Positions 2,856 to 49,910 of a DNA stretch of 64,000 nt are shown in pieces; position 1 is the first letter of the stretch; each line of letters opens with the position of its first letter. The stretch lies in assembly GCF_008271655.1 (NCBI RefSeq), contig NZ_VKKX01000011.1:682001-746000 (forward strand). The letters are read 5' to 3'. Below the pieces are notes generated by a model. It was given only the letters and a program-made list of their open reading frames with translations, was not told the DNA's origin and made no database searches. The DNA comes from Gemmobacter caeruleus. GTDB taxonomy: Bacteria > Pseudomonadota > Alphaproteobacteria > Rhodobacterales > Rhodobacteraceae. The position numbers and the translations under genes are program-made.

Positions 2856-2913
2856 CCGGAGGGGTTTTGCACCCCTCCGGACCTCCCCGCAGGATATTTT
2901 TGAACAGATGAAG
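2856..2913 (+). repeat. hairpin + ATATTTTTGAACAGATGAA box, copy 1
   Basis: A perfect 10-bp stem (CCGGAGGGGT / ACCCCTCCGG, loop TTTGC, 2856-2880) is followed by the conserved box at 2892-2913. It lies after the YciA thioesterase gene, on the same strand, in a convergent intergenic gap. The stem followed by an AT-rich TTTTT run resembles a Rho-independent terminator, but the box continues with a conserved GAACAGATGAAG that a terminator does not need. Six more copies occur in the window. Confidence 0.8.
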
Positions 2914-2920
2914 GGGGCGG

Positions 2921-3466
2921 TCAGGGGCGGATTTCGATCGGGGTGCCATCGGGCACCCGCGCCCAGATCGCCTCCATCTCGGTATTGGTGACGCCGATGC
3001 AGCCATCGGTCCAGTCCGCCATGCGGTGCAGCCTGCCAAGCGCGCCCCAGCCGTTCGGCAGACCATGGATCATCACCGCGCCGCCCGGGCTGACCCCGGC
3101 CGCCGCCGCCGCCGCACGGTCGCGGGCATCGGGGTAGGAGATGTGCAGGCTCAGATGCGCGACCGAGCGCGGGTTGCGCCAGTCGATGACATAGCTGCCT
3201 TCGGGCGTGCGTTCATCGCCCTCTTGGCGTTTGGGACCATCGCCGGGCGCGCCGCCAAGCGCGATGTCATAGCTGGCGATCCGGGTCGTGCCGCGCCACA
3301 GCTCCATCCGCCGGGCGGATTTCTCGACGATGATGCGGTCGGCCTGTTCCGCCACCGGGCGCATCGGCGGCGGTGTGCCGGGGGCGAGCCGCGCCATGGC
3401 CTTGGTATAAAGCGGCAGGCCCAGCAACAGGGCGATCGGCAGGCCCAGCCACCAGCGCCGCCGCAT
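2921..3466 (-). CDS. L,D-transpeptidase family protein (YkuD/YafK type)
   Basis: Predicted periplasmic enzyme that forms or edits 3-3 peptidoglycan crosslinks, or anchors proteins to peptidoglycan, 181 residues. The N-terminus is a membrane anchor or signal (RRRWWLGLPIALLLGLPLY). The catalytic signature is present: VMIHGLPN (about 132-139) and, downstream, DWTDGCIGVTN with the nucleophilic Cys (about residue 156) and the Gly-x-x-Asn end. The start ATG overlaps the stop of the upstream HD-domain gene by one base (TGATG), so the two are translationally coupled. The product of the first gene in this minus-strand set also binds peptidoglycan. The precise reaction is not determined. Confidence 0.88.
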   Translation of the reverse strand: MRRRWWLGLPIALLLGLPLYTKAMARLAPGTPPPMRPVAEQADRIIVEKSARRMELWRGTTRIASYDIALGGAPGDGPKRQEGDERTPEGSYVIDWRNPRSVAHLSLHISYPDARDRAAAAAAGVSPGGAVMIHGLPNGWGALGRLHRMADWTDGCIGVTNTEMEAIWARVPDGTPIEIRP

Positions 3467-4101
3467 CAGCCGATTTCCCGCAAGAGCCGCGTGCGGAAGG
3501 CGGCGACCCAGTCGGCGCGTTCCTCGGCCATGTCGCGGCCGGTTGCGGTCTGCATCGTGGCGACGATGGGAAACAGCTTGACCTCCAGATGGTCAAGCGC
3601 GAAGGCGCGGTCGTCCAGCGGGCGGTGCTGTGCCAGCGGATCGTCGGGGTCATAGATCTGGCCCCCCATCAGCCCGCTGACCGCGAACATCCGCGCAAGG
3701 CCGATGGCGCCAAGCGCCTCCAGCCTGTCGGCATCCTGCAAGATGCGCGCCTCGGCCGTTTCGGGGGCGATGCCGGCGGAAAAGCTGTGGGCGGCAATGG
3801 CATGGGCCACCGCGTCGAGCCTGGCCGCGGGAAAGCCGGCCTCGCGCAGCCAGTCCACCGCCGCCCGCGCCGAAAGGACCGAGGCCTCGTGCCGGTTGGG
3901 CGCATCCTTGGGCAGGTTCACCAGGTCATGCAGATAGGCGGCGGCGCAGAGCACCTCCAGATCGGCGCCGCCCTCGGCCGCGGCGATGCGGCGGCAATTG
4001 GCCCAGACCCGGCGCAGATGGCCGATATCATGCGCGGCATCCGACTGGCCTTGCCAGAGGTCGGCCAGCGCAGCCTCGTAATCGCGTTCGGTCAGGCTCA
4101 C
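3466..4101 (-). CDS. HD-domain phosphohydrolase
   Basis: Predicted metal-dependent phosphohydrolase of the HD superfamily (YedJ-like), 211 residues. The motifs are DAAHDIGHLRRVWANCR (first His), AAAYLHDLVNLPKD (HD pair) and, near 120-128, LQDADRLEA (distal Asp). I chose the GTG at 4101 because it overlaps the stop of the upstream lipoprotein gene (GTGA). The gene is the middle one of a three-gene minus-strand set between a peptidoglycan-binding lipoprotein and an L,D-transpeptidase. The substrate is unknown; members of the superfamily hydrolyse nucleotides or related phosphoesters. Confidence 0.85.
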   Translation of the reverse strand: MSLTERDYEAALADLWQGQSDAAHDIGHLRRVWANCRRIAAAEGGADLEVLCAAAYLHDLVNLPKDAPNRHEASVLSARAAVDWLREAGFPAARLDAVAHAIAAHSFSAGIAPETAEARILQDADRLEALGAIGLARMFAVSGLMGGQIYDPDDPLAQHRPLDDRAFALDHLEVKLFPIVATMQTATGRDMAEERADWVAAFRTRLLREIG

Positions 4102-4640
4102 AGCTCGTCCAACTCCGTCTTCACAAGGCCCAGCGTCTTGGCGCCCGCCAGCGACAGGACCGGGCTGTCGAGCCCCAGCGGCTCCTGAAAACGGCGGACG
4201 GCGTCCAGGGTGGCGGCGTCCATCGCCCCTGTCAGCGGCGCGAGGTAATAGCCCCGCGCCTTGAGCGCGCGCTGCACCGAGGCGATGAAATCCATCGTCA
4301 GTTCCTCGGGGCAGGGGGTGCGGATATGGATCGCCTGCCGGTCGCGCAGGATGCGCTGATGGGTCGAGGTCGCATAGGTCGCGGGGGTGACGACCGCGCC
4401 CGCCGCATCGGTCACGGCCGGGGTCACGACCACCTGTTCCGAAACCGTCTCGATCACGGCGGGGGTGATGTCGGTGGTCCAGCACCGACCGGGACGCGAG
4501 GGGGGGGGCGGGGTCTTGGTCCCGGCGACGCGGATCACGCCTTTTGACAGGTCGGCGGTGCCGGGGGCCGCGGGGCCGCCGCCGGTGCAGCCGGCAAGCA
4601 GCGGCAGGGCCAGCAGGACGGCGGTCTTCAAGAGGGTCAT
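4098..4640 (-). CDS. lipoprotein with peptidoglycan-binding-like domain
   Basis: 180-residue predicted lipoprotein. It starts with a lipoprotein signal (LLKTAVLLALPLLAGC, Cys about residue 18 as the lipidation site). A Pro/Thr-rich stretch and a central segment with CWTTDITPAVIETV follow. The C-terminal part (about 118-175: SVQRALKARGYYLAPLTGAMD, then DAVRRFQEPLGLDS) matches the helical peptidoglycan-binding (PG_binding_1) fold. It begins the set lipoprotein-HD hydrolase-L,D-transpeptidase, with overlapping stop/start codons. The role is inferred to be envelope maintenance; no enzymatic motif is seen. Confidence 0.8.
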   Translation of the reverse strand: MTLLKTAVLLALPLLAGCTGGGPAAPGTADLSKGVIRVAGTKTPPPPSRPGRCWTTDITPAVIETVSEQVVVTPAVTDAAGAVVTPATYATSTHQRILRDRQAIHIRTPCPEELTMDFIASVQRALKARGYYLAPLTGAMDAATLDAVRRFQEPLGLDSPVLSLAGAKTLGLVKTELDEL

Positions 4641-4687
4641 CGGTCGGTCTGCCCCTGGGTTCTGCCCGTTTCGACCCGGCACCATAG

Positions 4688-5838
<1,151 letters not shown>

Positions 5839-5844
5839 TCCACC

Positions 5845-5913
5845 CTTCATCTGTTCAAAAATATCCTCGGGGGTGAATTGGGCCGCAGGCCCAAGAGGGG
5901 GCAGACAGCCCCC
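5845..5913 (-). repeat. hairpin + ATATTTTTGAACAGATGAA box, copy 2
   Basis: On the minus strand a perfect GGGGGC/GCCCCC stem with loop TGTCT (5897-5913) and a second small stem (GGGCC/GGCCC, 5880-5892) precede the conserved box (5845-5866). The element lies just downstream of the minus-strand DUF1178 gene, between it and the convergent exported protein gene. Confidence 0.8.
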
Positions 5914-5923
5914 TTGCCCCGGC

Positions 5924-6343
5924 TCAGTTGGTCTTGCGGCCGGGCAGGAATGGCAGCGGCAGCACCGGCACGCCATCCTCGATCAGGCGGCGCGCCTCGT
6001 CGGGCTTTGCCTCGCCATGGATGGCGCGTTCCGGTGCCTCGCCCTCATGCATGCGGCGGGCCTCGGTGGCGAATTCCGTGCCGACATATTCCGATTTCGC
6101 CTCGATCTCGCGGCGCAGCGCGGCCAGCGCCTGTTCCTGCGGGCTGTTCTGGTCGCGCAGCGCGGCGCCGGTTTCGGTCCTGGCCGCGACCGAGGGCGCC
6201 ATCAGCGCCTTTTCCACCGTGCTGTTGCCGCAGATCGCGCAGGCGACCAGGCCGCGCGCCTGCAGCGTGTCAAAGGCGGTGGCCGACTGGAACCAGCTTT
6301 CAAAGCTGTGTCCCTCGGCGCAGGTCAGGGCGTAGCGGATCAT
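5924..6343 (-). CDS. DUF1178 family protein
   Basis: 139-residue protein of the DUF1178 family, common in alphaproteobacteria. The N-terminal MIRYALTCAEGHSFESWFQS and CAICGN (about 35-40) supply two pairs of potential zinc-binding Cys/His ligands, as in a small zinc ribbon. The rest is charged and helical (EQALAALRREIEAKSEYVG), ending in a short hydrophobic VLPLPFLPG tail. The function of the family is unknown. The gene lies downstream of the NUDIX gene on the same strand, with 70 bases between them. Confidence 0.85.
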   Translation of the reverse strand: MIRYALTCAEGHSFESWFQSATAFDTLQARGLVACAICGNSTVEKALMAPSVAARTETGAALRDQNSPQEQALAALRREIEAKSEYVGTEFATEARRMHEGEAPERAIHGEAKPDEARRLIEDGVPVLPLPFLPGRKTN

Positions 6344-6413
6344 GCCAGTGCTGCCGGAAAGCTGTTCTCTCCACATGGCGCTTGCGGCGTCGGAATGCAA
6401 CTGCCCGCGTTGC

Positions 6414-10093: not shown

Positions 10094-10195
10094 GATGCCC
10101 CTCCGGCGCGGTGATCCCCTGCGGCATAGCCACAGCGCCCCTGCCGCGCAAGCCGGATGCGCTGCGGCGGGTATAATCTGGAATTGGAATTAGAA

Positions 10196-10209: not shown

Positions 10210-10274
10210 TGCGGCGCCCGAGGCCGGCGGGCAGGGTGCCACCGAACGCGCATGACCCAGGATGGAGTATTGCG

Positions 10275-11312: not shown

Positions 11313-11332
11313 TCCGCCGTGACGCATCCCAC

Positions 11333-12431: not shown

Positions 12432-13850
12432 TCACAGCGCCGGCGGGCGGCGGCCGGGCCAGTCGGTCGCGGCATGGTAGCTCTGCCCGATTGCCAGCAC
12501 CTCGGCATCGGCGCCAAAGCGGCCGATGATCTGCATTCCCATCGGCAGGCCCGTCGCGCCAAACCCGCAAGGCACCGCCAGACTGGGCAGGCCGATCAGG
12601 CTGATCGGCACCACCACCTCCATCCAGCGGTGATACGTGTCCATCGCCCGACCATTGATCGCCTGCGGCCAACGCCAGTCGGCCGGAAACGGCCAGACCT
12701 GCGCCGAAGGCATCACCAGCGCGTCATATCGGGCAAACAGCTTTGCCGCGCGTGCATACCAGCGCGACCGGATCACGCTGGCCGCATGCACCTCTGCCGC
12801 GGTCACCGCCAGACCCTGTTCGATCTCCCATTGCGTCTCTGGCTTGAGCTGCGCCCATTGCGCCGGATCGTCGCGCATTGCCCCCTTGGCCCCGGCATTG
12901 AGAAAGGCCCGCAGCGTGAGCCAGGCCCACCACAGCTTTTCCGCCGGAAAGGGCGGCGCCACCTCGTCGATCTCCGCGCCCTGATCGGCCAGCACGGCAA
13001 GCCCCGCGCGACACAGATCCAGGATGCCGGGCTCGCAAGGATAGGCCCCGCCCCAATCGCCCAGCCAGCCGATGCGCCGCCCCTTCAGATCGGCGGGCGG
13101 GCGCAGGAAATCGCCGCCGGGCAGGCCAAAGGGCACGGTCGGGTTCTCGCCCGCCAGCACGCCCAGAAACCGCGCGACATCCTCGACCGTGCGCGCCATC
13201 GGGCCTTCGGTCGCCAGCGTCGCCATGAAGGTATCGCCTAGGGCATCGCCCGGCACCCGCCCGTAAGAGGGGCGCATGCCATAGACGTTGCAAAAGGCCG
13301 CCGGATTGCGCAGCGACCCCATCATGTCGCTGCCATCGGCCAGCGGCACCAGCCGTGCCGCCAGCGCCGCCGCCGCCCCGCCCGAGGAGCCGCCCGCCGT
13401 GCGCGTCAGATCATAGGGGTTGCGCGTCACCCCGAAGACCGGGTTCAAACTGTGGCTGCCATGGCCCCATTCCGGCGTATTGGTCTTGCCGACAAGGATC
13501 GCCCCTGCCGCCCGCATCCGCGCCGCGACCAGATCGTCGGCACCCGGCACATGATCGGCAAAGATTGGTGACCCATAGGTCGTGCGCAGCCCTTTCACCG
13601 CCACCAGATCCTTCACCGCCAGCGGCAGACCATGCAGCCAGCCCCGAACCGGCGCGTCATCCGCCGCCCGTGCCTCATCCATCAACACCTCGGGCGCGCG
13701 CGGCGACACGATGGCATTCACCGCCCCGTTCACCGACGCGCTGCGCGCCAGATGCGCCTCCATCACCTCCGAGGGCTTTATCTCACGCGCGGCGATCATC
13801 CGCGCCAGATCCGAGGCCGAACGATCCAGCAGCACGATATCCTCTTTCAT
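12432..13850 (-). CDS. amidase (amidase-signature family)
   Basis: 472-residue amidase-signature hydrolase. The Ser-cisSer-Lys triad is visible: Lys in LPLAVKDLVAVKG, then GGSSGGAAAALAARLVPLADGSD with both serines. The tail TGLPMGMQIIGRFGAD is typical of this family. The ATG at 13850 is taken from the conserved intergenic box (copy 3); no other start in the following 20 codons is better placed. Last gene of the minus-strand set that carries a polyamine-type ABC importer and a second amidase, so its amide substrate may be what the importer brings in. Substrate unknown. Confidence 0.9.
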   Translation of the reverse strand: MKEDIVLLDRSASDLARMIAAREIKPSEVMEAHLARSASVNGAVNAIVSPRAPEVLMDEARAADDAPVRGWLHGLPLAVKDLVAVKGLRTTYGSPIFADHVPGADDLVAARMRAAGAILVGKTNTPEWGHGSHSLNPVFGVTRNPYDLTRTAGGSSGGAAAALAARLVPLADGSDMMGSLRNPAAFCNVYGMRPSYGRVPGDALGDTFMATLATEGPMARTVEDVARFLGVLAGENPTVPFGLPGGDFLRPPADLKGRRIGWLGDWGGAYPCEPGILDLCRAGLAVLADQGAEIDEVAPPFPAEKLWWAWLTLRAFLNAGAKGAMRDDPAQWAQLKPETQWEIEQGLAVTAAEVHAASVIRSRWYARAAKLFARYDALVMPSAQVWPFPADWRWPQAINGRAMDTYHRWMEVVVPISLIGLPSLAVPCGFGATGLPMGMQIIGRFGADAEVLAIGQSYHAATDWPGRRPPAL

Positions 13851-13895
13851 CTGTTCAAAAATATCCTGGGGGGTGTGGGGGGCAAAGCCCCCCAC
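13845..13895 (-). repeat. hairpin + ATATTTTTGAACAGATGAA box, copy 3 (box supplies a start codon)
   Basis: On the minus strand a perfect 9-bp stem (GTGGGGGGC/GCCCCCCAC, loop TTT, 13875-13895) precedes the box at 13845-13866. The element lies between the polyamine-type binding-protein gene and the amidase gene, and the ATG inside its final GATGAAAG is the apparent amidase start. A further GC stem (GCGCCGCC/GGCGGCGC) lies at about 13900-13920. Confidence 0.8.
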
Positions 13896-18397: not shown

Positions 18398-18401
18398 GGC
18401 C

Positions 18402-33800: not shown

Positions 33801-33852
33801 CTTCATCTGTTCATAAATATCCCACGGGGGTCCGGGGGTGTGAAACCCCCGG
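33801..33852 (-). repeat. hairpin + ATATTTATGAACAGATGAA box, copy 4
   Basis: On the minus strand the box (33801-33822) follows a perfect stem CCGGGGGT/ACCCCCGG (33832-33852). A second near-identical hairpin (CTGGGGGT...ACCCCCGG region, 33877-33896) is a direct repeat further upstream. The element lies between accC and aat, both on this strand. Confidence 0.78.
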
Positions 33853-38726: not shown

Positions 38727-38731
38727 GGAAC

Positions 38732-38783
38732 GGGGGGCTGTCTGCCCCCCGCGCCCCCCGAGGATATTTGTGAACAGATGAAG
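38732..38783 (+). repeat. hairpin + ATATTTGTGAACAGATGAA box, copy 5
   Basis: Perfect 7-bp stem GGGGGGC/GCCCCCC with loop TGTCT (38732-38750), then the box at 38762-38783. Located between the convergent preA and kup genes, just five bases after the preA stop and in its orientation. The TGTCT loop is the same as in copy 2. Confidence 0.8.
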
Positions 38784-38807
38784 GGGGGCCGGCGGGCCCC
38801 TCTTTCG

Positions 38808-40697: not shown

Positions 40698-40774
40698 GAT
40701 GAGGTCCGGGAGGGATTCGCACTTTGCCCGGCATATCCCGCTTCGCGGCGCTTGTCAGCGGGGCATCGGCGGGC

Positions 40775-41197
40775 TCAGCCCTCGCTGCCGCGTGGCGGCG
40801 GGCCAAAGGCCGGGGGCCCCCAGGGCGGCAGCTTGGAGGCCTCCAGCGCCATGTCGCCCTTTTCGGGCAGCAGAACCACCCGGTCGATCAGCGCCTTGGC
40901 GGAATTGAGCAGCAGCGCCGTTTCCTCATAGGCGCGCACGGCGCGGACCTGCGCGGCCTCGGCCCGGGAACCGGGCATCTGGCGCAGGGTGCTGTCCTGT
41001 GCCACGGCCAGGCGGCTGATTTCGGTCGCGGCGAGATGCGCGATCAGCATCGGGGCGGGGCTGTCGCTGGGGGTGCCCTCCTCCGGGCGGGCGGTGGCGC
41101 GTTCGGCGGCAGAGGTGGCGGCGCGGGCATCCTGCCGCGCCTCGCTTGCGGGCAGGGGCGGCAGGGCCGCCGCCGCGCCGGTTGCAGAAATTTCCAT
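40775..41197 (-). CDS. hypothetical protein upstream of kup
   Basis: 140 residues, no signal peptide. The Ala-rich N-terminal half is low in complexity (AAAALPPLPASEARQDARAATSAAERATARPEEG), and the second half has a plausible helical segment (AEAAQVRAVRAYEETALLLNSAKALIDRVVLLPEK). The C-terminus is Pro-rich. I chose the ATG at 41197, nine bases after AAGGG. It lies 77 bases before kup on the same strand. No family recognised; possibly a Rhodobacteraceae-specific protein. Confidence 0.55.
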   Translation of the reverse strand: MEISATGAAAALPPLPASEARQDARAATSAAERATARPEEGTPSDSPAPMLIAHLAATEISRLAVAQDSTLRQMPGSRAEAAQVRAVRAYEETALLLNSAKALIDRVVLLPEKGDMALEASKLPPWGPPAFGPPPRGSEG

Positions 41198-41298
41198 CAC
41201 ACGCATCCCTTGCAGGCACCCCCGCAGCCATCTTGCCACGCGGCCCGGCGTCACGCCTGCCCTGACAGGGTTAACCGCGCGGGAAAATGCGGGGCATT

Positions 41299-41937
41299 CT
41301 ACGCATCCCGCGGGGCATTCGCGCCGCGCGGGGTCAGGCTGTTGCGAAACAGCGTCATCAGAAAGCTGTCGGCCTCGGCATAGGGATCATGGCCGGGGCC
41401 CAGCACGGCGCGCACCTGCACGTCGAAATCGGCGTAATGCTGCGTCGTCGCCCAGATCGAGAAGATGAGGTGATGCGGATCGACCGGCGCCAGCCGCCCC
41501 TGGGCGATCCAGCTGGCGATGAGGGCGGCCTTGTCATCGACCAGCGGCTTCAATTCGTCATGCAGCGGCCCCTGCACCCGGGGCGCGCCTTGGAGGATCT
41601 CATTGGCGAAAAGCCGGCTTTCGCGGGGAAAATCGCGGCTTAGTTCCAGCTTGCGGCGCACATAATCGAGGATCTCGTCCATCGGATCGCCCGCCGCATC
41701 CAGTTCGCGCAGCGGATCGAGCCAGACCTTGAGCAGCCCGCGGATCAGCTCTGCATGGATCGCCTCTTTCGAGGGGAAGTAATACAGCAGGTTGGGCTTG
41801 GACAGGCCCGCGCGTTCGGCGATCTGGTCCAGAGTCGCGCCCCGGAACCCGGCCTGGGAAAACACCTCCAGCGCGGCCTCCAGAATCGCTTCGGAGTTCT
41901 TTTGCTGGATACGGGTTTTCGGGCGGCTGCGAGGCAT
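41299..41937 (-). CDS. rutR: TetR-family regulator, RutR-like (pyrimidine utilisation)
   Basis: 212 residues. N-terminal TetR DNA-binding domain: ILEAALEVFSQAGFRGATLDQ and IAERAGLSKPNLLYYFPSKEAI. The C-terminal domain (ESRLFANEILQGAP, DDKAALIASWIAQGRLAPVDPHHLIFSIWATTQHYADF) closely follows RutR of E. coli, where uracil or thymine releases it from DNA. The gene is divergent from the aminotransferase gene, and a perfect TTGACC/GGTCAA palindrome lies between them. A second, related TetR protein is encoded at 44707-45339. Confidence 0.88.
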   Translation of the reverse strand: MPRSRPKTRIQQKNSEAILEAALEVFSQAGFRGATLDQIAERAGLSKPNLLYYFPSKEAIHAELIRGLLKVWLDPLRELDAAGDPMDEILDYVRRKLELSRDFPRESRLFANEILQGAPRVQGPLHDELKPLVDDKAALIASWIAQGRLAPVDPHHLIFSIWATTQHYADFDVQVRAVLGPGHDPYAEADSFLMTLFRNSLTPRGANAPRDA

Positions 41938-42104
41938 GGGCGCGCGTCCTGCATTTGATCAAAATGTCGCAATCAGACTGCCGGCAAGGCCGAACCCGAT
42001 TGAGCGAAGCCGGCAAAGCCGTCAATATGCAATTCGTGAACCGGCACCCCGACGCAGGCGTCTGTAACGCGCTTGACGCAGGGTTTGCCGCATGACAGCT
42101 TCAA

Positions 42105-42122
42105 TTTGACCGCGCGGTCAAA
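42105..42122. promoter_or_regulatory. RutR-type operator before the aminotransferase
   Basis: Perfect 18-base palindrome TTTGACCGC-GCGGTCAAA, centred 57 bases before the aminotransferase start. It preserves the TTGACC...GGTCAA arms of the E. coli RutR site (TTGACCAnnTGGTCAA). It lies in the 233-base divergent region shared with the rutR-like gene, so it could control both. Confidence 0.78.
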
Positions 42123-42170
42123 AAAATCAAGCCGTTTCGCCCGACGACACGGCCAACCGGGAGAGCCACC

Positions 42171-43499
42171 ATGGCGCTTGATCGCAAGCCCACGCCGAAT
42201 GACCTCAATGCCTTCTGGATGCCCTTCACCTCGAACCGGCAGTTCAAGAAAGCGCCGCGCATGTTCGTGGCGGCCAAGGACATGCATTACACCACCTCGG
42301 ACGGGCGGCAGGTGCTGGATGGCACCGCGGGCCTGTGGTGCTGCAATGCCGGCCATTGCCGCCCCAAGATCACCGAGGCGATCCAGAAACAGGCGGCGGA
42401 GCTGGATTATGCACCGGCCTTCCAGATGGGGCATCCGATTGCCTTTGAACTGGCCAATCGCATCATCGACATCGCGCCCAAGGGCATCGAACATGTGTTC
42501 TACACCAATTCGGGGTCCGAGTCGGTCGAGACCGCGCTGAAGATCGCCATCGCCTATCACCGGGCGCGGGGCGAGGGCGCGCGCACCCGGCTGATCGGGC
42601 GCGAGCGCGGCTATCACGGGGTGAATTTCGGCGGCATCTCGGTCGGCGGCATCGTCAATAACCGCAAGATGTTCGGCACGCTGCTGGGCGGGGTTGATCA
42701 CCTGCCGCATACCCATCTGCCGGCGCAGAACGCCTTTACCAGGGGCCAGCCCGAACATGGCGCCAACCTGGCCGACGATCTGGAACGCATCGTGGCGCTG
42801 CATGGCGCGGAAACCATCGCGGCCGTCATCGTCGAACCGATGGCCGGGTCTACCGGCGTGCTCATGCCGCCGAAGGGCTATCTGGAAAAGCTGCGCGCCA
42901 TCACCAAAAAACACGGCATCCTGCTGATCTTTGACGAGGTGATCACCGGCTTCGGGCGCCTGGGTTCGGCCTTTGCGGCCCAGCATTTCGACGTGCTGCC
43001 CGACATGATGACCACCGCCAAGGGCCTGACCAACGGCGTCATTCCGATGGGCGCGGTGCTGACCACGGCCGAGGTGCATGACGCCTTCATGAACGGCCCG
43101 GAACACATGATCGAGCTGTTCCACGGCTATACCTATTCCGGCAACCCCATCGCCAGCGCCGCCGGCATCGCCACGCTGGACACCTACAAGGAAGAAGGGC
43201 TGTTCGAGCGCGCCAATGACCTGGCCCCCTATTGGGAACAGGCGCTGCACAGCCTGCGTGGCCTGCCGCATGTGATCGACATCCGCAACATGGGCCTCAT
43301 CGGCGCGGTGGAACTGGAGCCGATCGCGGGCGAGCCGACCAAGCGCGCCTTCAACGCCTTCCTCAAGGCCTATGAAAAGGGCATCCTGATCCGCACCACC
43401 GGCGACATCATCGCCATGTCGCCGCCGCTCATCATCTCCAGGGCGGAAATCGACACGCTGATCGGCACCCTTGCGGATGTGCTGAAAACGCTGGACTAA
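42171..43499 (+). CDS. omega-amino acid:pyruvate aminotransferase (beta-alanine:pyruvate type)
   Basis: 442-residue class III PLP aminotransferase. The PLP-binding Lys284 is in TTAKGLTNGVIPMGAVL; other motifs are GLWCCNAGHCRPKI, FYTNSGSESVETALKIA and LLIFDEVITGFGRLG. The family (beta-alanine/omega-amino acid:pyruvate) produces malonate semialdehyde from beta-alanine, the end product of HyuC action on N-carbamoyl-beta-alanine. Preceded by a RutR-type palindrome. A strong hairpin follows the stop. Confidence 0.93.
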   Translation: MALDRKPTPNDLNAFWMPFTSNRQFKKAPRMFVAAKDMHYTTSDGRQVLDGTAGLWCCNAGHCRPKITEAIQKQAAELDYAPAFQMGHPIAFELANRIIDIAPKGIEHVFYTNSGSESVETALKIAIAYHRARGEGARTRLIGRERGYHGVNFGGISVGGIVNNRKMFGTLLGGVDHLPHTHLPAQNAFTRGQPEHGANLADDLERIVALHGAETIAAVIVEPMAGSTGVLMPPKGYLEKLRAITKKHGILLIFDEVITGFGRLGSAFAAQHFDVLPDMMTTAKGLTNGVIPMGAVLTTAEVHDAFMNGPEHMIELFHGYTYSGNPIASAAGIATLDTYKEEGLFERANDLAPYWEQALHSLRGLPHVIDIRNMGLIGAVELEPIAGEPTKRAFNAFLKAYEKGILIRTTGDIIAMSPPLIISRAEIDTLIGTLADVLKTLD

Positions 43500-43506
43500 T
43501 GGGGCA

Positions 43507-43527
43507 GGGGCGGGATCCTCCCGCCCC
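43507..43527 (+). terminator. GC hairpin after aminotransferase (possible terminator/attenuator)
   Basis: Perfect stem GGGGCGGGA / TCCCGCCCC around TCC, nine bases after the aminotransferase stop. There is no T run after it, so it may stabilise the 3' end or attenuate rather than terminate. Confidence 0.4.
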
Positions 43528-43550
43528 GCTTACCCCGGCAGGAGATCACG

Positions 43551-43850
43551 ATGACCGACAGCGAAATCCGTTTGCAGGCCACCGGAACGCTTCTGATGGA
43601 AACCGACCGGGTGATGGTCTGGCGTTACGATTTCGCCCCGGGGGCCGAAACCGGCTGGCATATCCATGGCCATGATTATGTCATCACCACCCTGACCGAT
43701 TGCGCGCTGCGCCTGGAACTGCCGGGCGGCGAGGTGCGCGAAAGTTTCATCCCCGCCGGCAGCGCCTATTCGCGCCCGCAGGGCACCGAACACAATGTGA
43801 TCAACGCCTCGGACCAGACCATGAGCTTTATCGAGGTCGAGCTGAAGTGA
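43551..43850 (+). CDS. cupin-domain protein
   Basis: 99-residue single-domain cupin. Metal-binding motif 1 is GWHIHGHDYVITTL (His-x-His), motif 2 is SRPQGTEHNVIN. Start after CAGGAG. It lies between the aminotransferase and an exported protein in the pyrimidine region. Such small cupins can be enzymes or ligand-binding proteins; the substrate is unknown. Cupins have been noted beside omega-amino acid aminotransferases, so a role in beta-alanine metabolism is possible but unproven. Confidence 0.8.
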   Translation: MTDSEIRLQATGTLLMETDRVMVWRYDFAPGAETGWHIHGHDYVITTLTDCALRLELPGGEVRESFIPAGSAYSRPQGTEHNVINASDQTMSFIEVELK

Positions 43851-43921
43851 TCGGCACCTGGCCTTGCCGGGCGTCAGGGGCGGGCCTATCTCGGGCCGGA
43901 TTGCGCCCCGGGGGTTTCGTG

Positions 43922-44701
43922 ATGCGTGCCATTCTTGCCGTTCTGCCATGTCTGCTGCTGCCGGGGGTGGCGGCGGCTGGCGATCTGGTTCCGTGCCAGA
44001 CCTCCATGCGGGGCGAGGCGGTGTCCTTCGTCTACGATCCCGACAGCCCCGATCTGCAAGACAGTCTGACCCTGCGGCAAAAGCTGGCGGGCGCTGCGGG
44101 GGACGGGGTCACCTGCCCGGGTCTGGTGACGCTGCGCGTCTTTACCCCTGAAATGACCGATGCCGACCGCGCGCCGTTCTGCCTGCAATGGGACCGGGGC
44201 CTCGGCACCTATCTGGGCTATGATCTGGGGCCGCGCGACGGGTTCCTGACCTGCAAGACCGCGAAAAAGCAGTTCTGCCAGCGGGTGAACGGGTCGAAAC
44301 AGGCCGCCGCGCGCTGGACCGGCGTTGCCCGCGATCTGGCGGTGGATGCCGGGACCGAGACGCTGCTTTACAATTCGGGCGTGATGTCGGTGCAGGGGCC
44401 GGCGGCGCTGATCGGGGAAAAGCTGCTGGGCCTTGGCGCCACGGCGGTCGAAGGGATGGGCGCGGGGGCCGCCCTGGGCGCGGTGGCGGTGACGGCGGTT
44501 GCCGTGGGCGGCGCGGTCTATGTCTGCTCTGACGAGGGCGCGGCGGCGGCGGCGGTGGAGGCCGACCCGGTGCCGAAACTGCGCGCCGGCGAAGTGGCCC
44601 CTGGCGCCAACCTGCCGGAAGGCGAGCCGCGCATCACCGCGACCCCGATTCCGACCCCGGGCACGGGGACCAGCACCCCGGCCCCCGTCGCCGGAGAGTG
44701 A
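43922..44701 (+). CDS. exported protein of unknown function
   Basis: 259 residues. Signal peptide (RAILAVLPCLLLPGVAAAGD), a mature N-terminal domain with seven cysteines (PCQTSM, VTCPGL, PFCLQWD, LTCKTAKKQFCQRV), a Gly/Ala-rich hydrophobic segment (about 180-205, GATAVEGMGAGAALGAVAVTAVAVGGAVYVC) and a Pro/Thr-rich tail (TPIPTPGTGTSTPAPVAGE). No family recognised. ATG at 43922; no clear Shine-Dalgarno. Located between the cupin and the convergent TetR gene in the pyrimidine region, so it may be an outsider to the pathway. Confidence 0.62.
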   Translation: MRAILAVLPCLLLPGVAAAGDLVPCQTSMRGEAVSFVYDPDSPDLQDSLTLRQKLAGAAGDGVTCPGLVTLRVFTPEMTDADRAPFCLQWDRGLGTYLGYDLGPRDGFLTCKTAKKQFCQRVNGSKQAAARWTGVARDLAVDAGTETLLYNSGVMSVQGPAALIGEKLLGLGATAVEGMGAGAALGAVAVTAVAVGGAVYVCSDEGAAAAAVEADPVPKLRAGEVAPGANLPEGEPRITATPIPTPGTGTSTPAPVAGE

Positions 44702-44706
44702 GAGGG

Positions 44707-45339
44707 TCAGATCGCGCCGATGCCGCGCAGGATGATCTGTTTGACCGTCTCGGTCGCCTCTTGCCATTGCGCATCGCTCAGCGGCGTGGCGCCGTTCAAC
44801 GTTTCGATCTGATGGCCGAAATCGGCGTAATGCTGCGTGGTGGCCCATAGCATGTAGAGAAGACGCTCCGGGTCCACCGGGCGCATCTTGCCCGCCGCGA
44901 TCCAGGCGCGGATCAGCGCCACGCGCCCCGCCGTCCAGTCTCGCAGCGTGGTTTCCAGATAGTCCTGGATCACCGGCGCGCCATGCATCACCTCGGCCGC
45001 CCAGACCTTTGACCCATGCGGATGCCGGCGCGAGATCTCCATCTTGGCCTCGATATAGGCGCCGATCCCCTCGGCCGGGCTGTCGGTGCCGTCCATGCTG
45101 TCGGCGGCATGCAGCCAGATCTCGAAGATATTGCCGACGACGCGGCGATAGAGTTCTTCCTTGGTTGCGAAATAATAGTGCAGATTGGCCTTGGGCAGCC
45201 CGGCCATATCGGCGATCAACTGCATGGTGGCACCGCCAAACCCCGCCTCGGCAAAGACTTTTTCCGCCGCCTGCAAAATAAGCGCCTCGTTCTGGGCGCG
45301 GATCTCGTTGCGGCGATGCGGGCGGGGGCTGTCTGACAC
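44707..45339 (-). CDS. TetR-family regulator, second RutR-like paralogue
   Basis: 210 residues from a GTG at 45339 (GGAG ten bases upstream). An upstream in-frame ATG at about 45404 would run through the operator region, so I do not favour it. HTH: ILQAAEKVFAEAGFGGATMQL then IADMAGLPKANLHYYFATKEEL. C-terminal ligand domain resembles RutR (GRVALIRAWIAAGKMRPVDPERLLYMLWATTQHYADF). Divergent from hyuC over two TTGACC/GGTCA palindromes. About as related to the other RutR-like protein here as paralogues usually are; which one senses uracil is open. Confidence 0.88.
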   Translation of the reverse strand: MSDSPRPHRRNEIRAQNEALILQAAEKVFAEAGFGGATMQLIADMAGLPKANLHYYFATKEELYRRVVGNIFEIWLHAADSMDGTDSPAEGIGAYIEAKMEISRRHPHGSKVWAAEVMHGAPVIQDYLETTLRDWTAGRVALIRAWIAAGKMRPVDPERLLYMLWATTQHYADFGHQIETLNGATPLSDAQWQEATETVKQIILRGIGAI

Positions 45340-45370
45340 GCGCGGCGGGCTCCGATCCGGTTGCGAATTT

Positions 45371-45399
45371 TTGTTGACCAGTTGGTCAGGAGGTATAGC
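45371..45399 (+). promoter_or_regulatory. hyuC promoter candidate overlapping operator 1
   Basis: TTGTTG (45371-45376) and TATAGC (45394-45399) are separated by 17 bases. Operator 1 (45374-45389) covers the -35 and spacer, and operator 2 begins about where transcription would start (about 45406). This is the geometry expected for repression by a TetR/RutR protein. Confidence 0.55.
45374..45389. promoter_or_regulatory. RutR-type operator 1 before hyuC
   Basis: TTGACCA-GT-TGGTCAG matches the E. coli RutR consensus TTGACCAnnTGGTCAA at all but the last defined base. It lies between the divergent TetR paralogue gene and hyuC. Confidence 0.85.
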
Positions 45400-45406
45400 C
45401 TTCATC

Positions 45407-45422
45407 TTGACCATACGGTCAG
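45407..45422. promoter_or_regulatory. RutR-type operator 2 before hyuC
   Basis: TTGACCA-TA-CGGTCAG, a weaker copy of the same palindrome. Its centre is 33 bases from that of operator 1, about three helical turns, so both can be occupied on the same face of the DNA. Confidence 0.78.
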
Positions 45423-45480
45423 GATCAGATTCGCCGCAAGACCCGCAAAAGACGGGCGCGGAGACAGGGAGAGCAAGCTG

Positions 45481-46731
45481 ATGCCAGCACCCGGAGAGAA
45501 CCTTCGCATCGACCCCGCGCGCCTGTGGGACAGCCTGATGGAAATGGCGAAGATCGGCCCCGGCGTGGCGGGCGGCTGCAACCGCCAGACCCTGACCGAT
45601 GCCGATGGCGAGGGCCGCCACCTGTTTCAGCGCTGGTGCGAGGGGGCGGGCATGACCATGGGTGTCGATACCATGGGCAACATGTTCGCGACGCGGCCCG
45701 GCACCGACCCCGACGCGCTGCCGGTCTATATGGGCAGCCATCTGGATACCCAGCCCACGGGCGGCAAATATGACGGCGTGCTGGGCGTGCTGGGCGCGCT
45801 GGAGGTGGTGCGCACGATCAATGACATGGGGCTGAAGACCCGGCATCCGATCGTGGTGACCAACTGGACAAATGAGGAAGGCGCGCGTTTCGCCCCCGCC
45901 ATGCTGGCCTCGGGTGTGTTCGCGGGTATCCATACCCAGGACTATGCCTATGGCCGCACCGACCCCGAGGGCAAACGCTTTGGCGACGAACTGGCCCGCA
46001 TCGGCTGGGTCGGGGATGAGGTCGTGGGCGCGCGCAAGATGAAGGCGATGTTCGAGCTGCATATCGAACAGGGCCCGATCCTGGAGGCCGAGGGCCGCAG
46101 CATCGGTGTCGTCACTCATGGGCAGGGCCTGTGGTGGCTGGAAATCACCCTGACCGGCAAGGATGCGCATACCGGATCGACTCCGATGAATATGCGGGTG
46201 AATGCGGGCCTTGGCATGGCGCGGATCACCGAGCGGGTGCATCAGATCGCGATGAGCCACCAGCCCAATGCCGTGGGGGCGGTCGGGCAGGTCTTCGTCC
46301 ATCCGAATTCGCGCAACGTGATCCCCGGCAAGGTGGTGTTCACGGTCGATATCCGCAGCCCCGAACAGGCCAAGCTGGACGCCATGCGCGCCGAGGTGGA
46401 GCGCGCGGCCCATGCGGTTGCCGCCGAGCTGGGCCTTGGGTGCAGCATCGAGCCGGTCGGGCATTTCGACCCGGTCACCTTTGACCCCGACCTTGTGAAG
46501 ATCGTTCGGCAATCGGCTGAAAAGCTGGGATATTCCCATATGGATATTGTCTCGGGCGCCGGGCATGACGCCTGCTGGATCAACCGCGTGGCGCCCACGA
46601 CCATGGTCATGTGCCCCTGCGTGGACGGGCTGAGCCATAACGAGGCCGAGGAGATCAGCCCGGAATGGGCGGCGGCGGGGGCGGATGTGCTGCTGCATGC
46701 GGTGTTGCAGGTGGCCGAAGTGGTCGAATGA
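45481..46731 (+). CDS. hyuC: Zn-dependent N-carbamoyl-beta-alanine amidohydrolase (beta-ureidopropionase, M20 type)
   Basis: 416 residues. M20-family amidohydrolase that splits N-carbamoyl-beta-alanine to beta-alanine, CO2 and ammonia. Metal ligands: MGSHLDTQPTGGKYDGVLG (His and Asp), NEEGARF (Glu), HIEQGP (His) and a late DGLSHNEAE. The ATG follows AGGGAGAGC. Two RutR-type operators precede it. Downstream is hydA, separated by element copy 6. Confidence 0.92.
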   Translation: MPAPGENLRIDPARLWDSLMEMAKIGPGVAGGCNRQTLTDADGEGRHLFQRWCEGAGMTMGVDTMGNMFATRPGTDPDALPVYMGSHLDTQPTGGKYDGVLGVLGALEVVRTINDMGLKTRHPIVVTNWTNEEGARFAPAMLASGVFAGIHTQDYAYGRTDPEGKRFGDELARIGWVGDEVVGARKMKAMFELHIEQGPILEAEGRSIGVVTHGQGLWWLEITLTGKDAHTGSTPMNMRVNAGLGMARITERVHQIAMSHQPNAVGAVGQVFVHPNSRNVIPGKVVFTVDIRSPEQAKLDAMRAEVERAAHAVAAELGLGCSIEPVGHFDPVTFDPDLVKIVRQSAEKLGYSHMDIVSGAGHDACWINRVAPTTMVMCPCVDGLSHNEAEEISPEWAAAGADVLLHAVLQVAEVVE

Positions 46732-46740
46732 CGGCAGGCC

Positions 46741-46792
46741 CCGGGGGCTTCGCGCCCCCGGACCCCCGCGGGATATTTAGGAACAGATGAAG
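46741..46792 (+). repeat. hairpin + ATATTTAGGAACAGATGAA box, copy 6
   Basis: Perfect 8-bp stem CCGGGGGC/GCCCCCGG with loop TTCGC (46741-46761), then the box at 46771-46792. It lies between hyuC and hydA, on the coding strand, inside what should be one pathway operon. Confidence 0.8.
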
Positions 46793-46806
46793 GCAGGGAG
46801 GCCGGG

Positions 46807-48261
46807 ATGGCATCGACGGTGATCAAGGGCGGGACGGTTGTCACGGCGGATCTGTCCTATGAGGCGGATGTGCTGGTCGAGGGGGGCGTGATCACCGCGA
46901 TTGGCGCCGGGCTGACCGGCGACACGGTGCTGGACGCCTCGGGCTGTTACATCATGCCGGGCGGGATCGACCCGCATACCCATCTGGAAATGCCGTTCAT
47001 GGGCACCTATTCCGCCGATGATTTCGAAAGCGGCACGCGGGCGGCGCTGGCAGGCGGCACCACGATGGTGGTGGATTTCGTGCTGCCGGGGCAGGGCCAG
47101 GGGCTGATGGATGCCGCGCAGATGTGGCACAACAAGTCGGGCCGGGCGAATTGCGATTATTCCTATCACATGGCGATCACCTGGTGGGGTGAGAAGGTCT
47201 GGGAGGACATGGAGGCCAGCGTGAAGGCGGGCATCACCTCCTTCAAGCATTTCATGGCCTACAAGGGCGCGCTGATGGTGAATGATGACGAGCTGTTCGC
47301 GTCGTTCCGCCGGGTGGGCGATCTGGGCGGGCTGGCCATGGTTCATGCCGAAAACGGCGATGTGGTGGCGGAACTGACGGCAAAGCTGCTGGCCGAGGGC
47401 AATGCCGGCCCCGAGGCGCATGCCTATTCCCGCCCGCCGCAGGTGGAGGGCGAGGCCACGAACCGCGCCATCATGATCGCCGATATGGCGGGGGTGCCGC
47501 TTTATGTGGTCCATACCTCTTGCGAGGAGGCGCATGAGGCGATCCGTAGGGCGCGGCAGGCGGGCAAGCGGGTCTGGGGCGAGCCGCTGATCCAGCATCT
47601 GACGCTCGACGAGAGCGAATATTTCAACCCCGACTGGGACCATGCGGCGCGGCGTGTCATGTCGCCGCCCTTCCGCAACAAGGCGCATCAGGCGAGCCTC
47701 TGGGCCGGGTTGCAGGCGGGCAGCCTGTCTTGCGTGGCGACCGATCATTGCGCCTTCACCACCGCGCAGAAGCGCTTTGGCGTGGGCGATTTTTCCAAGA
47801 TCCCGAATGGCACCGGCGGGCTGGAGGATCGTTTGCCGATGCTCTGGACGCATGGGGTGAATACCGGGCGGCTGACGCCGAATGAGTTTGTCGCCGTGAC
47901 CTCGACCAATATCGCCAAGATCCTGAACCTTTACCCGAAGAAGGGGGCGGTTCTGGTCGGCGCGGATGCCGATCTGGTGGTCTGGGATCCGGCGAAGGAA
48001 AAGGTGATCTCGGCCGGCAGCCAGCAATCGAGCATTGATTACAACGTGTTCGAGGGGCAGGCGGTGAAGGGACTGCCGCGGTTTACCCTGTCGCGTGGCA
48101 AGGTGGTGGTGCAGGATGGCGAGATGCGGACCGAGGAGGGCCATGGCCAGTTCGTCGGCCGCACGCCGCGCCCGGCCGTGAACCGCGCGCTGAGCGCCTG
48201 GAAGGAACTGACCGCGCCGCGCCCGGTGGCGCGCAGCGGCATCCCGGCGACGGGGGTCTGA
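46807..48261 (+). CDS. hydA: dihydropyrimidinase
   Basis: 484 residues. Cyclic amidohydrolase that opens dihydrouracil/dihydrothymine to N-carbamoyl-beta-amino acids. Metal-binding HxH in GGIDPHTHLEMPF, bridging Lys in ITSFKHFMAYKGALM, later ligands in MVHAENGD and YVVHTSCEEAHEAI, and Asp in CVATDHCAF. The ATG follows GGGAGG. Forms the second step of the reductive pyrimidine pathway between PreTA and HyuC. Confidence 0.95.
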   Translation: MASTVIKGGTVVTADLSYEADVLVEGGVITAIGAGLTGDTVLDASGCYIMPGGIDPHTHLEMPFMGTYSADDFESGTRAALAGGTTMVVDFVLPGQGQGLMDAAQMWHNKSGRANCDYSYHMAITWWGEKVWEDMEASVKAGITSFKHFMAYKGALMVNDDELFASFRRVGDLGGLAMVHAENGDVVAELTAKLLAEGNAGPEAHAYSRPPQVEGEATNRAIMIADMAGVPLYVVHTSCEEAHEAIRRARQAGKRVWGEPLIQHLTLDESEYFNPDWDHAARRVMSPPFRNKAHQASLWAGLQAGSLSCVATDHCAFTTAQKRFGVGDFSKIPNGTGGLEDRLPMLWTHGVNTGRLTPNEFVAVTSTNIAKILNLYPKKGAVLVGADADLVVWDPAKEKVISAGSQQSSIDYNVFEGQAVKGLPRFTLSRGKVVVQDGEMRTEEGHGQFVGRTPRPAVNRALSAWKELTAPRPVARSGIPATGV

Positions 48262-48270
48262 GGGCGTCTT

Positions 48271-48414
48271 TCAGGCGCTGTCGGTCTCGGGGTCGTCTTC
48301 GGGATCGGCGTCGGGGCACAGATGCAGGGTTGCAGGCCAGACGGGCAGAAAGATCGGATTGAAAAGGGGATGGCCTTGCGCGGCAAGGAATGTCGGAAAA
48401 AATGGCAGAAACAT
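48271..48414 (-). CDS. small hydrophobic protein (47 aa), predicted
   Basis: 47 residues, MFLPFFPTFLAAQ then GHPLFNPIFLPVWPATLHLC and an acidic end (DADPEDDPETDSA). An exceptional GGAGGAGG lies seven bases before the ATG at 48414, which is why I report it. It runs opposite to hydA and stops 10 bases after hydA ends. No membrane anchor of standard length, but two aromatic/Pro hydrophobic patches. No homologue recognised. Confidence 0.5.
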   Translation of the reverse strand: MFLPFFPTFLAAQGHPLFNPIFLPVWPATLHLCPDADPEDDPETDSA

Positions 48415-48537
48415 CGGGGCCTCCTCCAGCCTGCCGGGGCATCCTGCGCCCGGCGCGTGACAGGGGTATGACGCGATGAGGGATCGGCCTTGCCCGGCAT
48501 CCCAGGCGGCAGAGCTGGCGCGGCGGAGGGCCGGGGT

Positions 48538-49035
48538 GTGACCGCGCGCGCGCATGAGGCGCGGATCGAGGCCAGGACCGGCATCGGCGCGCGGCTGGCG
48601 CTGACGGTGGTCGCGTCGAGCCTTGTGATGCCGCTGGTGCTGGCGGTTCCGGCGATCGTCCGGGCCGGGCTGGACCAGGGGGCGGGCGCTGCTTTCGAGA
48701 TGACGGGCGCGTCGGTCCGGGGGATGGCACCTGTCGCGATCCTGCTCTGGCCGGTGACCTTGCCGGGGGCGCTGTTGCTCTGGGCGGGGGCCTGGTATCT
48801 GGGCTGGCGCCGGGGCTGGCCGGAGCTTGGGCGCGCGGCCCTGGCCGGGGTGGCGGCGGGGGTCGGTGCCACGCTCGGCTTGCTGTTCGGGCTGGGCATG
48901 GGCGGCGATGCCTCGGCAGGTGCCGCGCGGGGCATGTCGGTCATCGCATTGGCCGCGATGCTGGCCGGGGCGGTGGCGGCGTTTGTGATCTATCACCCGG
49001 TCTGGCAGTCTGGCCGGGCCCGGAGCCTGCAATGA
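48538..49035 (+). CDS. polytopic membrane protein of unknown function
   Basis: 165 residues with four predicted membrane helices (about LALTVVASSLVMPLVLAVPAIV, GMAPVAILLWPVTLPGALLLWAG, AALAGVAAGVGATLGLLFGLG, GMSVIALAAMLAGAVAAFVIY). The start is a GTG at 48538, seven bases from GGAGGG. The stop overlaps one possible ATG of the following ATPase gene (ATGA), so it is probably translated with the NMT1-type transporter. Not an ABC permease by sequence. Function unknown. Confidence 0.7.
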   Translation: MTARAHEARIEARTGIGARLALTVVASSLVMPLVLAVPAIVRAGLDQGAGAAFEMTGASVRGMAPVAILLWPVTLPGALLLWAGAWYLGWRRGWPELGRAALAGVAAGVGATLGLLFGLGMGGDASAGAARGMSVIALAAMLAGAVAAFVIYHPVWQSGRARSLQ

Positions 49036-49049
49036 AGGAGAATGACAGC

Positions 49050-49841
49050 ATGAGCCCGGTGATCGACCCGGTGATCGAGGCAAGGGGGCTGGATCTGGTG
49101 TTCCAGACCGCCGACGGGCCGGTGCAGGCGTTGAAGGACGTGAGCCTGACCATTGGCAAGGGCGAATTCGTCAGCTTCATCGGCCCCTCGGGCTGCGGCA
49201 AGACAACCTTTCTGCGCTGTATCGCCGCGCTGGAACATCCGACCGGGGGCAGCCTGACGGTGAACGGCATGACGCCGGACGAGGCGCGGCGCAAGCGGGC
49301 CTATGGCTATGTCTTTCAGGCGGCGGGGCTCTATCCCTGGCGCAGCATTGCCGGCAATATCAAGCTGCCGCTGGAGATCATGGGCTTTTCCCGCGACGAG
49401 CAGGAACAGCGCGTGCGCAAGGTGTTGCAGCTGGTGGATCTGGAGGGGTTCGGCAAGAAATTCCCCTGGCAGCTATCAGGCGGCATGCAGCAACGCGCCA
49501 GCATCGCGCGGGCGCTGGCCTTTGACGCCGATCTCCTCTTGATGGACGAGCCCTTTGGCGCGCTGGACGAGATCGTGCGCGACCGGCTGAACGAGGAGGT
49601 GCTGAAGCTTTGGGCGCGGACCGGCAAGACCATCGGCTTTGTCACCCATTCCATCCCCGAGGCGGTCTATCTTTCGACCAAGATCGTGGTGATGAGCCCG
49701 CGTCCGGGGCGGATCACCGATGTCATCGACAGCCCGCTGCCGCGCGAAAGGCCGCTGGAAATTCGCGACAGCCGGGAGTTCATCGAGATTGCCCATCGGG
49801 TGCGCGAGGGGCTGCGGGCGGGGCATGGCGATGAGATCTGA
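49050..49841 (+). CDS. ABC transporter ATP-binding protein (nitrate/sulfonate/pyrimidine-precursor type)
   Basis: 263 residues from the ATG at 49050, nine bases after AAGGAG (an ATG at 49032 overlapping the previous stop is an alternative). Motifs: [13 protein letters not shown] (Walker A), VFQAAGLYPWRS (Q loop), LSGGMQQRASIARAL (signature), LLLMDEPFGALDEIV (Walker B), and switch VTHSIPEAVYL. Of the SsuB/TauB/ThiZ kind. First transporter gene of the set that follows hydA. Confidence 0.9.
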   Translation: MSPVIDPVIEARGLDLVFQTADGPVQALKDVSLTIGKGEFVSFIGPSGCGKTTFLRCIAALEHPTGGSLTVNGMTPDEARRKRAYGYVFQAAGLYPWRSIAGNIKLPLEIMGFSRDEQEQRVRKVLQLVDLEGFGKKFPWQLSGGMQQRASIARALAFDADLLLMDEPFGALDEIVRDRLNEEVLKLWARTGKTIGFVTHSIPEAVYLSTKIVVMSPRPGRITDVIDSPLPRERPLEIRDSREFIEIAHRVREGLRAGHGDEI

Positions 49842-49867
49842 GCGCGCTTGCGGGCGGGGCCGTCGCC

Positions 49868-49910
49868 GGGGGGCCGTCTGCCCCCCGCGGATATGTGAGA
49901 AAACAAGAAG
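49868..49910 (+). repeat. degenerate hairpin + box, copy 7
   Basis: Perfect 7-bp stem GGGGGGC/GCCCCCC with loop CGTCT (49868-49886), then a decayed box GATATGTGAGAAAACAAGAAG (49890-49910). It lies between the ATPase and first permease genes. Its hairpin is nearly identical to copies 2 and 5; the box shares about 16 of 22 positions with copy 1. Confidence 0.6.

Follow-up and report, generated by a model that had tools for sequence, protein, structure and literature searches.

We analyzed a window of 64,000 nucleotides from Gemmobacter caeruleus (Rhodobacteraceae; assembly GCF_008271655.1, contig NZ_VKKX01000011.1, positions 682,001 to 746,000 of the forward strand) in which seven copies of a dispersed element, a GC hairpin followed by a conserved box, lie between genes. 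A sequence-only reading of the window had reported these seven boxes, and our analysis confirmed their positions and strands, the GC hairpin before each of them, and the TGTCT or CGTCT loop common to three of the stems (copies 2, 5 and 7). Six of the boxes match GGATATTTNNGAACAGATGAAR, and the seventh, at 49889, is decayed as reported, with no match to this pattern and with neither TATTT nor a second C-rich tract. Using gene calls from our own script, on which all gap and orientation counts below are also based, and Pfam names for the genes in the window, we placed three of the seven copies in gaps between convergent genes and the other four between genes that run in the same direction (Table 1). 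Our analysis suggests, at slightly less than even confidence, that these copies belong to a Rhodobacteraceae-wide family of dispersed 3′-end elements, the sense strand of which is a candidate class III (purine-pyrimidine-pyrimidine) intrastrand-triplex hairpin.

Table 1. The seven copies of the element, their parts and their neighbouring genes (coordinates are those of the window)
Copy	Extent	Strand	First (purine) arm	Second (pyrimidine) arm	Third tract	Box	Neighbouring genes	Remarks
1	2858..2913	+	GGAGGGG, 2858-2864	2872-2878	CCTCCCC (mirror), 2882-2888	2892-2913	4HBT thioesterase 2479-2832 (+); YkuD 2921-3466 (-); convergent	Stem type A
2	5845..5913	-	5909-5913	5897-5901	5869-5873	5845-5866	DUF1178 5924-6343 (-); FG-GAP 5185-5838 (+); convergent	Stem type C; second hairpin as linker
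3	13845..13893	-	13888-13893	13877-13882	13868-13873	13845-13866	Solute-binding-protein gene; amidase gene; same strand	
4	33801..33850	-	33846-33850	33834-33838	33826-33830	33801-33822	Biotin carboxylase gene; leucyl/phenylalanyl-tRNA transferase gene (aat)	
5	38732..38783	+	38732-38737	38745-38750	38754-38759	38762-38783	DHO_dh/Fer4 37425-38726 (+); K+ transporter 38808-40697 (-); convergent	
6	46743..46792	+	46743-46747	46755-46759	46763-46767	46771-46792	M20 peptidase-family gene; amidohydrolase gene	
7	49868..49910	+	49868-49873 (hairpin arm)	49881-49886 (hairpin arm)			ABC ATPase gene; permease gene	Incomplete: hairpin, GGATATGTG and GAAAACAAGAAG tail, without third tract

The box recurs throughout the genome, beyond what chance would give. 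A 16-mer, TTTTTGAACAGATGAA, allowed up to two mismatches, has 109 matches in the 3.99 Mb genome, and the reversed pattern has none. In 457,713 bases of DNA from this genome, i.e., the window together with 20 stretches picked for holding copies, we identified 67 copies at 0-2 mismatches, none at three, two at four, seven at five and 16 at six, where six shuffled consensuses gave a mean of 0 at 0-4 mismatches, 0.7 at five and 2.8 at six. Both four-mismatch matches are hairpin-linked variants, and the five-mismatch matches, judged by eye, look like coding DNA. Since these stretches, and those from the relative G006 used below, were picked for holding copies, the copy densities in them are not genome averages. 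A search with the covariance models of Rfam 15 gave no match in the window at the gathering threshold, and none at E ≤ 1 for positions 2700-3100.

Architecture of the element and its third tract

Alignment of 115 listed copies from the G. caeruleus genome showed a fixed order on the sense strand: a purine arm, a loop, a pyrimidine arm, a linker formed either by a second hairpin or by a spacer of one to a few bases, a further C-rich tract, G(G)A, and TATTT, followed by two variable bases, a purine, a three-base stretch whose sequence differs between lineages (the dialect) and AGATGAAR. The distance from stem to TATTT is about 9-14 bases, more where a second hairpin is present, and the third tract sits between them. 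The stems group into a few families. The variable pair that follows TATTT reads TT in 45, GT in 21 and GG in 18 of these copies, so that the run of five T that the sequence-only reading took as part of the box is not a fixed feature; that reading had also not remarked on the second C-rich tract, its mirror relation to the stem, the lineage-specific tails or the family-wide distribution.

The third tract follows the stem in length. From 454 boxes, 329 had a scannable stem and the 312 of these with a GC content of at least 60% were used. Of the 251 pure-G arms, 207 have a G-run of the same length as the longest C-run ahead of TATTT (mean 97 and maximum 122 in 2000 shuffles), an agreement that is inflated by the shared ancestry of stem families. 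Arms interrupted by an A are able to discriminate between two explanations of this match, in that an alternative Watson-Crick pairing with the purine arm would require the third tract to repeat the pyrimidine arm directly, and a parallel Hoogsteen third strand would require it to be the mirror of that arm. Our local set contained 55 arms with an A away from the very bottom of the stem. The full mirror was present in 26 of 29 GGAGGGG arms, all from one amplified family, and in all of the GGGGAGGG (8 of 8), GGGGGA (3 of 3), GGGGGGA (1 of 1) and GGGGGAGG (1 of 1) arms; GGAGG (4) and GGGAGG (1) arms gave a tie between mirror and direct forms, and one mis-scanned GGAGGG favored the direct form.

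We extended this comparison to 394 genomes of the family using one fixed arm, with totals that we summed from per-genome rows. The mirror form gave 111 matches in 38 genomes, and the direct form gave 2 matches in 2 genomes, both of which also satisfy the mirror pattern; backwards control patterns showed no preference (58 vs 49). By this contrast and the length match above, the sense strand has the order of three consecutive tracts, with the third mirroring the second, of a class III intrastrand triplex motif. We opened 30 of the 111 mirror matches, one per genome (28 outside the genus of the window and 2 inside it), and found that 22 continue with TATTT within about 12 bases of the tract, with two further near-variants. 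In the G. caeruleus stretches, a mirror tract is present in 89 of 96 TATTT-linked purine-arm hairpins and in 5 of 40 other hairpin strands, a control that leaves out the antisense strands of the elements themselves and in which one of the five positive strands is a copy with TACTT. In one genome, G068, the backwards control patterns match 16 times, and perhaps represent another repeat with pyrimidine tracts ahead of a hairpin.

Unless a single strand has been selected to form a structure of three strands, we find this mirror covariation difficult to explain. If H-DNA alone were selected, the purine arm would be superfluous.

Placement, conservation and spread

In the sampled G. caeruleus stretches, and counting gaps of at least 60 bases, the element occupies 20 of 34 convergent, 26 of 134 tandem and 2 of 68 divergent gaps. 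The sequence-only reading held that the element always takes the orientation of the preceding gene. This is the case for the seven copies in the window, where for the three convergent copies a gene precedes in either orientation anyway, and it fails in the wider sample: single copies in tandem gaps of 30-2000 bases from G. caeruleus and G006, with paired copies and gaps outside these limits dropped, are in the sense orientation 37 times and antisense 19 times (p = 0.022). A relation to gene ends, the absence of which that reading had named as grounds for giving up its proposal, is therefore seen in position and only in part in orientation. Many tandem singles of both orientations are within a few bases of a stop codon, and the downstream space does not differ between sense and antisense tandem singles (p = 0.44). 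In a few copies, the next start codon is just 10-15 bases on. We also observed 43 head-to-head pairs (e.g., L039, L048 and L430), in which the distances between TATTT starts cluster at about 46-48, 51-54 and 56-60, roughly half-turn steps; a matching of the variable bases within such pairs was considered and dropped, with 15 of 43 pairs equal where about 9.2 are expected.

Several copies are kept at orthologous sites. For example, a TATTT element is present at the site of copy 6 in all 8 relatives with a readable gap (G008 one-sided) and at the site of copy 3 in 7 of 8 relatives. At the site of copy 7, TATTT is present in 5 of 10 relatives (G001, G002, G004, G005 and G008) and TATTG in G007, with none in G003, G009 or G010, and G006 only partly shown.

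The tail differs between lineages. In general form, the hairpin and third tract are followed by G(G)(A/G)TATTT, then by two variable bases, and last by a purine-rich tail whose dialect is specific to the lineage. The AAC-AGATGAA tail, counted in 61 genomes, is present 97 times in G. caeruleus, 65 in G004, 36 in G005, 21 in G008, 11 in G036, 8 in G001, 5 in G002 and once in G031, and is absent from the other 53. Two further dialects were counted in 41 genomes, and each is absent from 34 of these, including G. caeruleus: CCA (G008 57, G003 55, G006 52, G009 33, G001 25, G002 24 and G007 4) and NAC-AGAAAATGA (G008 38, G006 26, G004 22, G009 16, G002 10, G001 6 and G005 1). Two AAAAGAAG-type variants in the fetched G. 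caeruleus stretches are the sole exceptions to the absence of CCA and AGAAAATGA. The box is also found on contigs of Gemmobacter caeni and G. lutimaris, and a looser TATTT...AGATGAAG pattern is found with other triplets in 79 of 120 genomes of the family, taken one per genus, with some of the low counts due to chance. A contig labelled DPANN group archaeon (L144) bears the AAC box, and is possibly a mis-binned Rhodobacteraceae contig.

At the site between the biotin carboxylase gene and aat (copy 4), the stem ccgggggtttcacacccccggacccccgtg is identical in G. caeruleus, G002, G005, G006 and G009 and one base off in G008, and the tails are AAC in G. caeruleus and G005, CCA in G006, GAC-AGAAAATGA in G009 and AAC-AGAAAATGA in G008; the box and tail are changed in G002, G004 has another stem and G001 a decayed form. 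Among the 22 CCA and 28 AAC/GAC-type copies listed from G006, both dialects occur on the same stem families, as judged by eye. Together, these findings indicate that the tail can change in place without the stem, which poses a puzzle of concerted evolution in its own right.

One stem type, type A, is represented in the G. caeruleus genome by 28 copies and, by eye, 3 near-variants of a unit of about 58 bases, near-invariant outside its final base and the two variable positions after TATTT. In the 28 copies, these two positions read TT 18, GT 6, GG 2, TA 1 and AT 1 times. In a search of the genus, every type A match among the matches listed was in G. caeruleus (G000), and the site of copy 1, a type A copy, holds no element in G001 or G005, the two relatives in which it is resolved on both sides. 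From this near-invariance and distribution, type A seems to have spread recently, and the spread of one stem type in one species fits the mobile component of the earlier suggestion of a unit resembling a miniature inverted-repeat transposable element. Possible carriers were also considered. Mobilization by a RAYT, as for repetitive extragenic palindromic (REP) sequences, was set aside, with no match to the Y1 transposase family PF01797 in the G. caeruleus genome and matches in 5 of 14 controls, and so was carriage by phages, with the AAC pattern in one stretch of viral contigs and the CCA pattern in 113 stretches, many of them probably chance. A search of plasmids gave one match for copy 1, in Paracoccus liaowanqingii, at 79.7%.

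At copy 3, the ATG in the tail is in frame with the amidase gene (472 aa, Pfam Amidase), and the same frame is perhaps present, by eye, in the relatives L406, L399, L398 and L408; the tail of this copy may have been co-opted to start translation. We rejected a coding start as the general role of the box, since this ATG at 13845 is not matched generally and the 717-aa frame that starts at 38778 is spurious, the K+ transporter gene lying there on the opposite strand. Copies 6 and 7 are inside a co-directional run in the region 37425-50783, which holds DHO_dh/ferredoxin-type, M20, amidohydrolase and ABC transporter genes whose names suggest a pyrimidine-degradation-like set.

Comparison with known repeats and 3′-end structures

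REP sequences and bacterial interspersed mosaic elements are short palindromic intergenic repeats located behind genes, rare in promoter regions and found as paired inverted units, and REP sequences with a RAYT have a conserved tetranucleotide at the stem foot. The element is likewise short, intergenic, behind genes, rare in divergent gaps and sometimes in inverted pairs; it differs in its third tract and in the lack of a PF01797 Y1/RAYT match in the G. caeruleus genome. Intrinsic terminators consist of a GC hairpin and a T-containing tract, behind stop codons and between convergent genes, and all of these features are shared by the element. However, no T tract directly follows its hairpin, since the third tract and G(G)A intervene, two variable bases and a conserved tail follow, and one third of tandem singles are antisense. 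The MALAT1 and PAN ENE are eukaryotic or viral RNA triple-helix 3′-end elements, rich in U.A-U triplets. The element would resemble them in adding a third strand to a hairpin or duplex close to the 3′ end of an RNA, but it is bacterial and rich in C+.G-C.

The closest relatives that we identified are the BoxC/PIT/TM-ECO intrastrand triplex repeats (Holder et al. 2015, PMC4666352); statements on this survey here refer to the accessible part of its text. Triplex motifs are described there as abundant, with repeats counted in many bacterial genomes and their selection and role left open, and the class II TM-ECO repeat was studied, for which footprinting in cells did not favor a stable triplex and a regulatory role was not observed. 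The TM-ECO consensus is CCCTCNCCC-N3-6-GGGNGAGGG-N3-GGGNGAGGG, pyrimidine-purine-purine. Similar to these repeats, the element is dispersed, intergenic and GC-rich, has three consecutive triplex-capable tracts, is at times in inverted pairs and varies much in copy number between relatives. Its sense strand is of class III, purine-pyrimidine-pyrimidine (purine-purine-pyrimidine on the other strand), and its aligned copies do not show the consensus order of TM-ECO, BoxC or PIT. The printed TM-ECO consensus repeats GGGNGAGGG directly, where the interrupted tracts of the element are mirrored, and the accessible text describes no box and no strand bias for TM-ECO, where the element has TATTT and a dialect tail and stands behind stop codons. 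Rhodobacter, Rhodobacteraceae and Paracoccus do not appear in the main text of the survey as far as it was accessible, and searches of the open-access literature with the box sequence, and with the tail and “Rhodobacter”, gave, among the papers listed, none that by its title concerns such an element. A study of PNPase in R. sphaeroides found no motif at PNPase-dependent 3′ ends, according to the accessible portion (PMC7866481). As far as searched, and within the open-access literature, we read the element as a variant of the intrastrand-triplex repeats that is new in its strand order and box.

Weighing the explanations

On the strength of its sense bias, its coupling to TATTT and its location behind stop codons, we favor, tentatively and just short of an even chance, an RNA 3′-end element that would act through a class III triplex hairpin as an exonuclease barrier and as a terminator, full or partial. 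The C-rich tract of the transcript would fold back into the major groove of the hairpin, and the triplex would clamp the RNA to a point some nine to eleven bases short of where UAUUU ends. Such a clamp would be a barrier to 3′-5′ exonucleases and would terminate transcription fully or partially, in which role it would mark 3′ ends between convergent genes and separate the expression of neighbouring cistrons in operons; the repeats would have spread by copying, type A recently. The sense strand gives a pyrimidine-motif triplex, a kind that occurs in RNA, and the antisense strand gives a purine-motif triplex, which cannot form in RNA and is restricted to DNA (PMC4666352). The proposal in the sequence-only reading of a messenger-RNA stability site or terminator is partly supported by the position behind stop codons, the convergent enrichment, and the operon-internal copies 3 and 6 kept in relatives. 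A bolder form of this reading, which we regard as doubtful, is a new bacterial class of terminators and 3′-end protectors based on a co-transcriptional RNA triple helix, in which the C-rich third strand would zip into the hairpin groove on leaving the polymerase and replace the stem base of ordinary terminators, with a strength that would depend on pH via C protonation and a tail tuned by dialect.

A number of observations weigh against the RNA 3′-end reading. The 19 antisense copies among 56 tandem singles, together with the equal downstream spacing, argue that the element is not a dedicated terminator; C+.G-C triplets require C protonation, and PIT/BoxC elements had no terminator activity in earlier work, as reported in the accessible text (PMC4666352). 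It is these three points, the antisense third, the protonation and the reported inactivity of PIT, that hold our confidence at its present level. In arms with an A at or beside the bottom (AGGGGG, GAGGGGG), the third tract has an A instead of the matching T, such that GAGGGGG (6) and GAGGGG (1) arms show A opposite their A. The 111 mirror matches are partly non-independent (13 in G263, 10 in G408 and 9 in G314), and 8 of the 30 opened have no TATTT, six of which resemble chance or coding sequence. Counts of G.U vs A.C as a guide to the functional strand were uninformative, and counts of second hairpins were contaminated by mis-scanned stems. Site turnover is real: besides the empty sites of copy 1 described above, copy 4 is absent in 3 of 10 relatives (G003, G007 and G010) and decayed in 2, and copy 5, in four resolved relatives, is present in G006 and G009 and absent in G003 and G010.

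A rival explanation is a dispersed repeat acting at the level of DNA, like REP or BoxC, with a triplex formed in single-stranded DNA. It would serve replication, recombination, supercoiling or its own spread, and would stand at gene ends simply because it is tolerated there; the antisense strand would then form a purine-motif, class I triplex that is independent of pH. Both orientations directly behind stop codons, the seldom occupied divergent gaps (2 of 68), type A in G000 only among the matches listed, the copy 1 site empty in G001 and G005, and the spacing of about 46-60 bp between the TATTT starts of head-to-head pairs all agree with such a repeat, as does the likeness to TM-ECO, whose intergenic copies show no strand bias and sometimes form inverted pairs, according to the accessible text (PMC4666352). 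We nevertheless consider it rather unlikely, given that several sites are kept between species, that sense copies prevail 37:19 in tandem gaps, that 22 of the 30 mirror loci we opened have TATTT next to the tract and that no Y1 transposase (PF01797) was found in the G. caeruleus genome.

Such positions, which lie a few bases to some tens of bases past a stop codon and are enriched between convergent genes, would also be expected of ordinary Rho-independent terminators with a family-typical sequence, whose second C-tract would be incidental or an alternative Watson-Crick partner of the G arm, and at the copy 5 site ordinary hairpins with a T-rich flank do replace the element, by eye, in G003 and G010. 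Yet the Watson-Crick alternative predicts the direct repeat, which the mirror outnumbers 111 to 2; some ordinary hairpins in this genome, judged by eye, lack a third tract and have a T run immediately next to the stem, and one third of tandem singles are antisense, so this explanation appears improbable. Least probable to us is that the tail is bound by a protein or small RNA whose changing specificity between lineages drives the dialects. The near-exclusive use of AAC in G. caeruleus (97, with CCA and AGAAAATGA at 0 apart from the two AAAAGAAG-type variants) and the tail changes on unchanged stems at an orthologous site are consistent with such a reader, but some genomes hold two or three dialects, such as G008 with CCA 57, AGAAAATGA 38 and AAC-AGATGAA 21 times. 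The evolutionary signal in the third tract, its mirror order and its coupling to TATTT, means that the question of whether an intrastrand triple helix has a natural function is open to direct tests in culturable Rhodobacteraceae.

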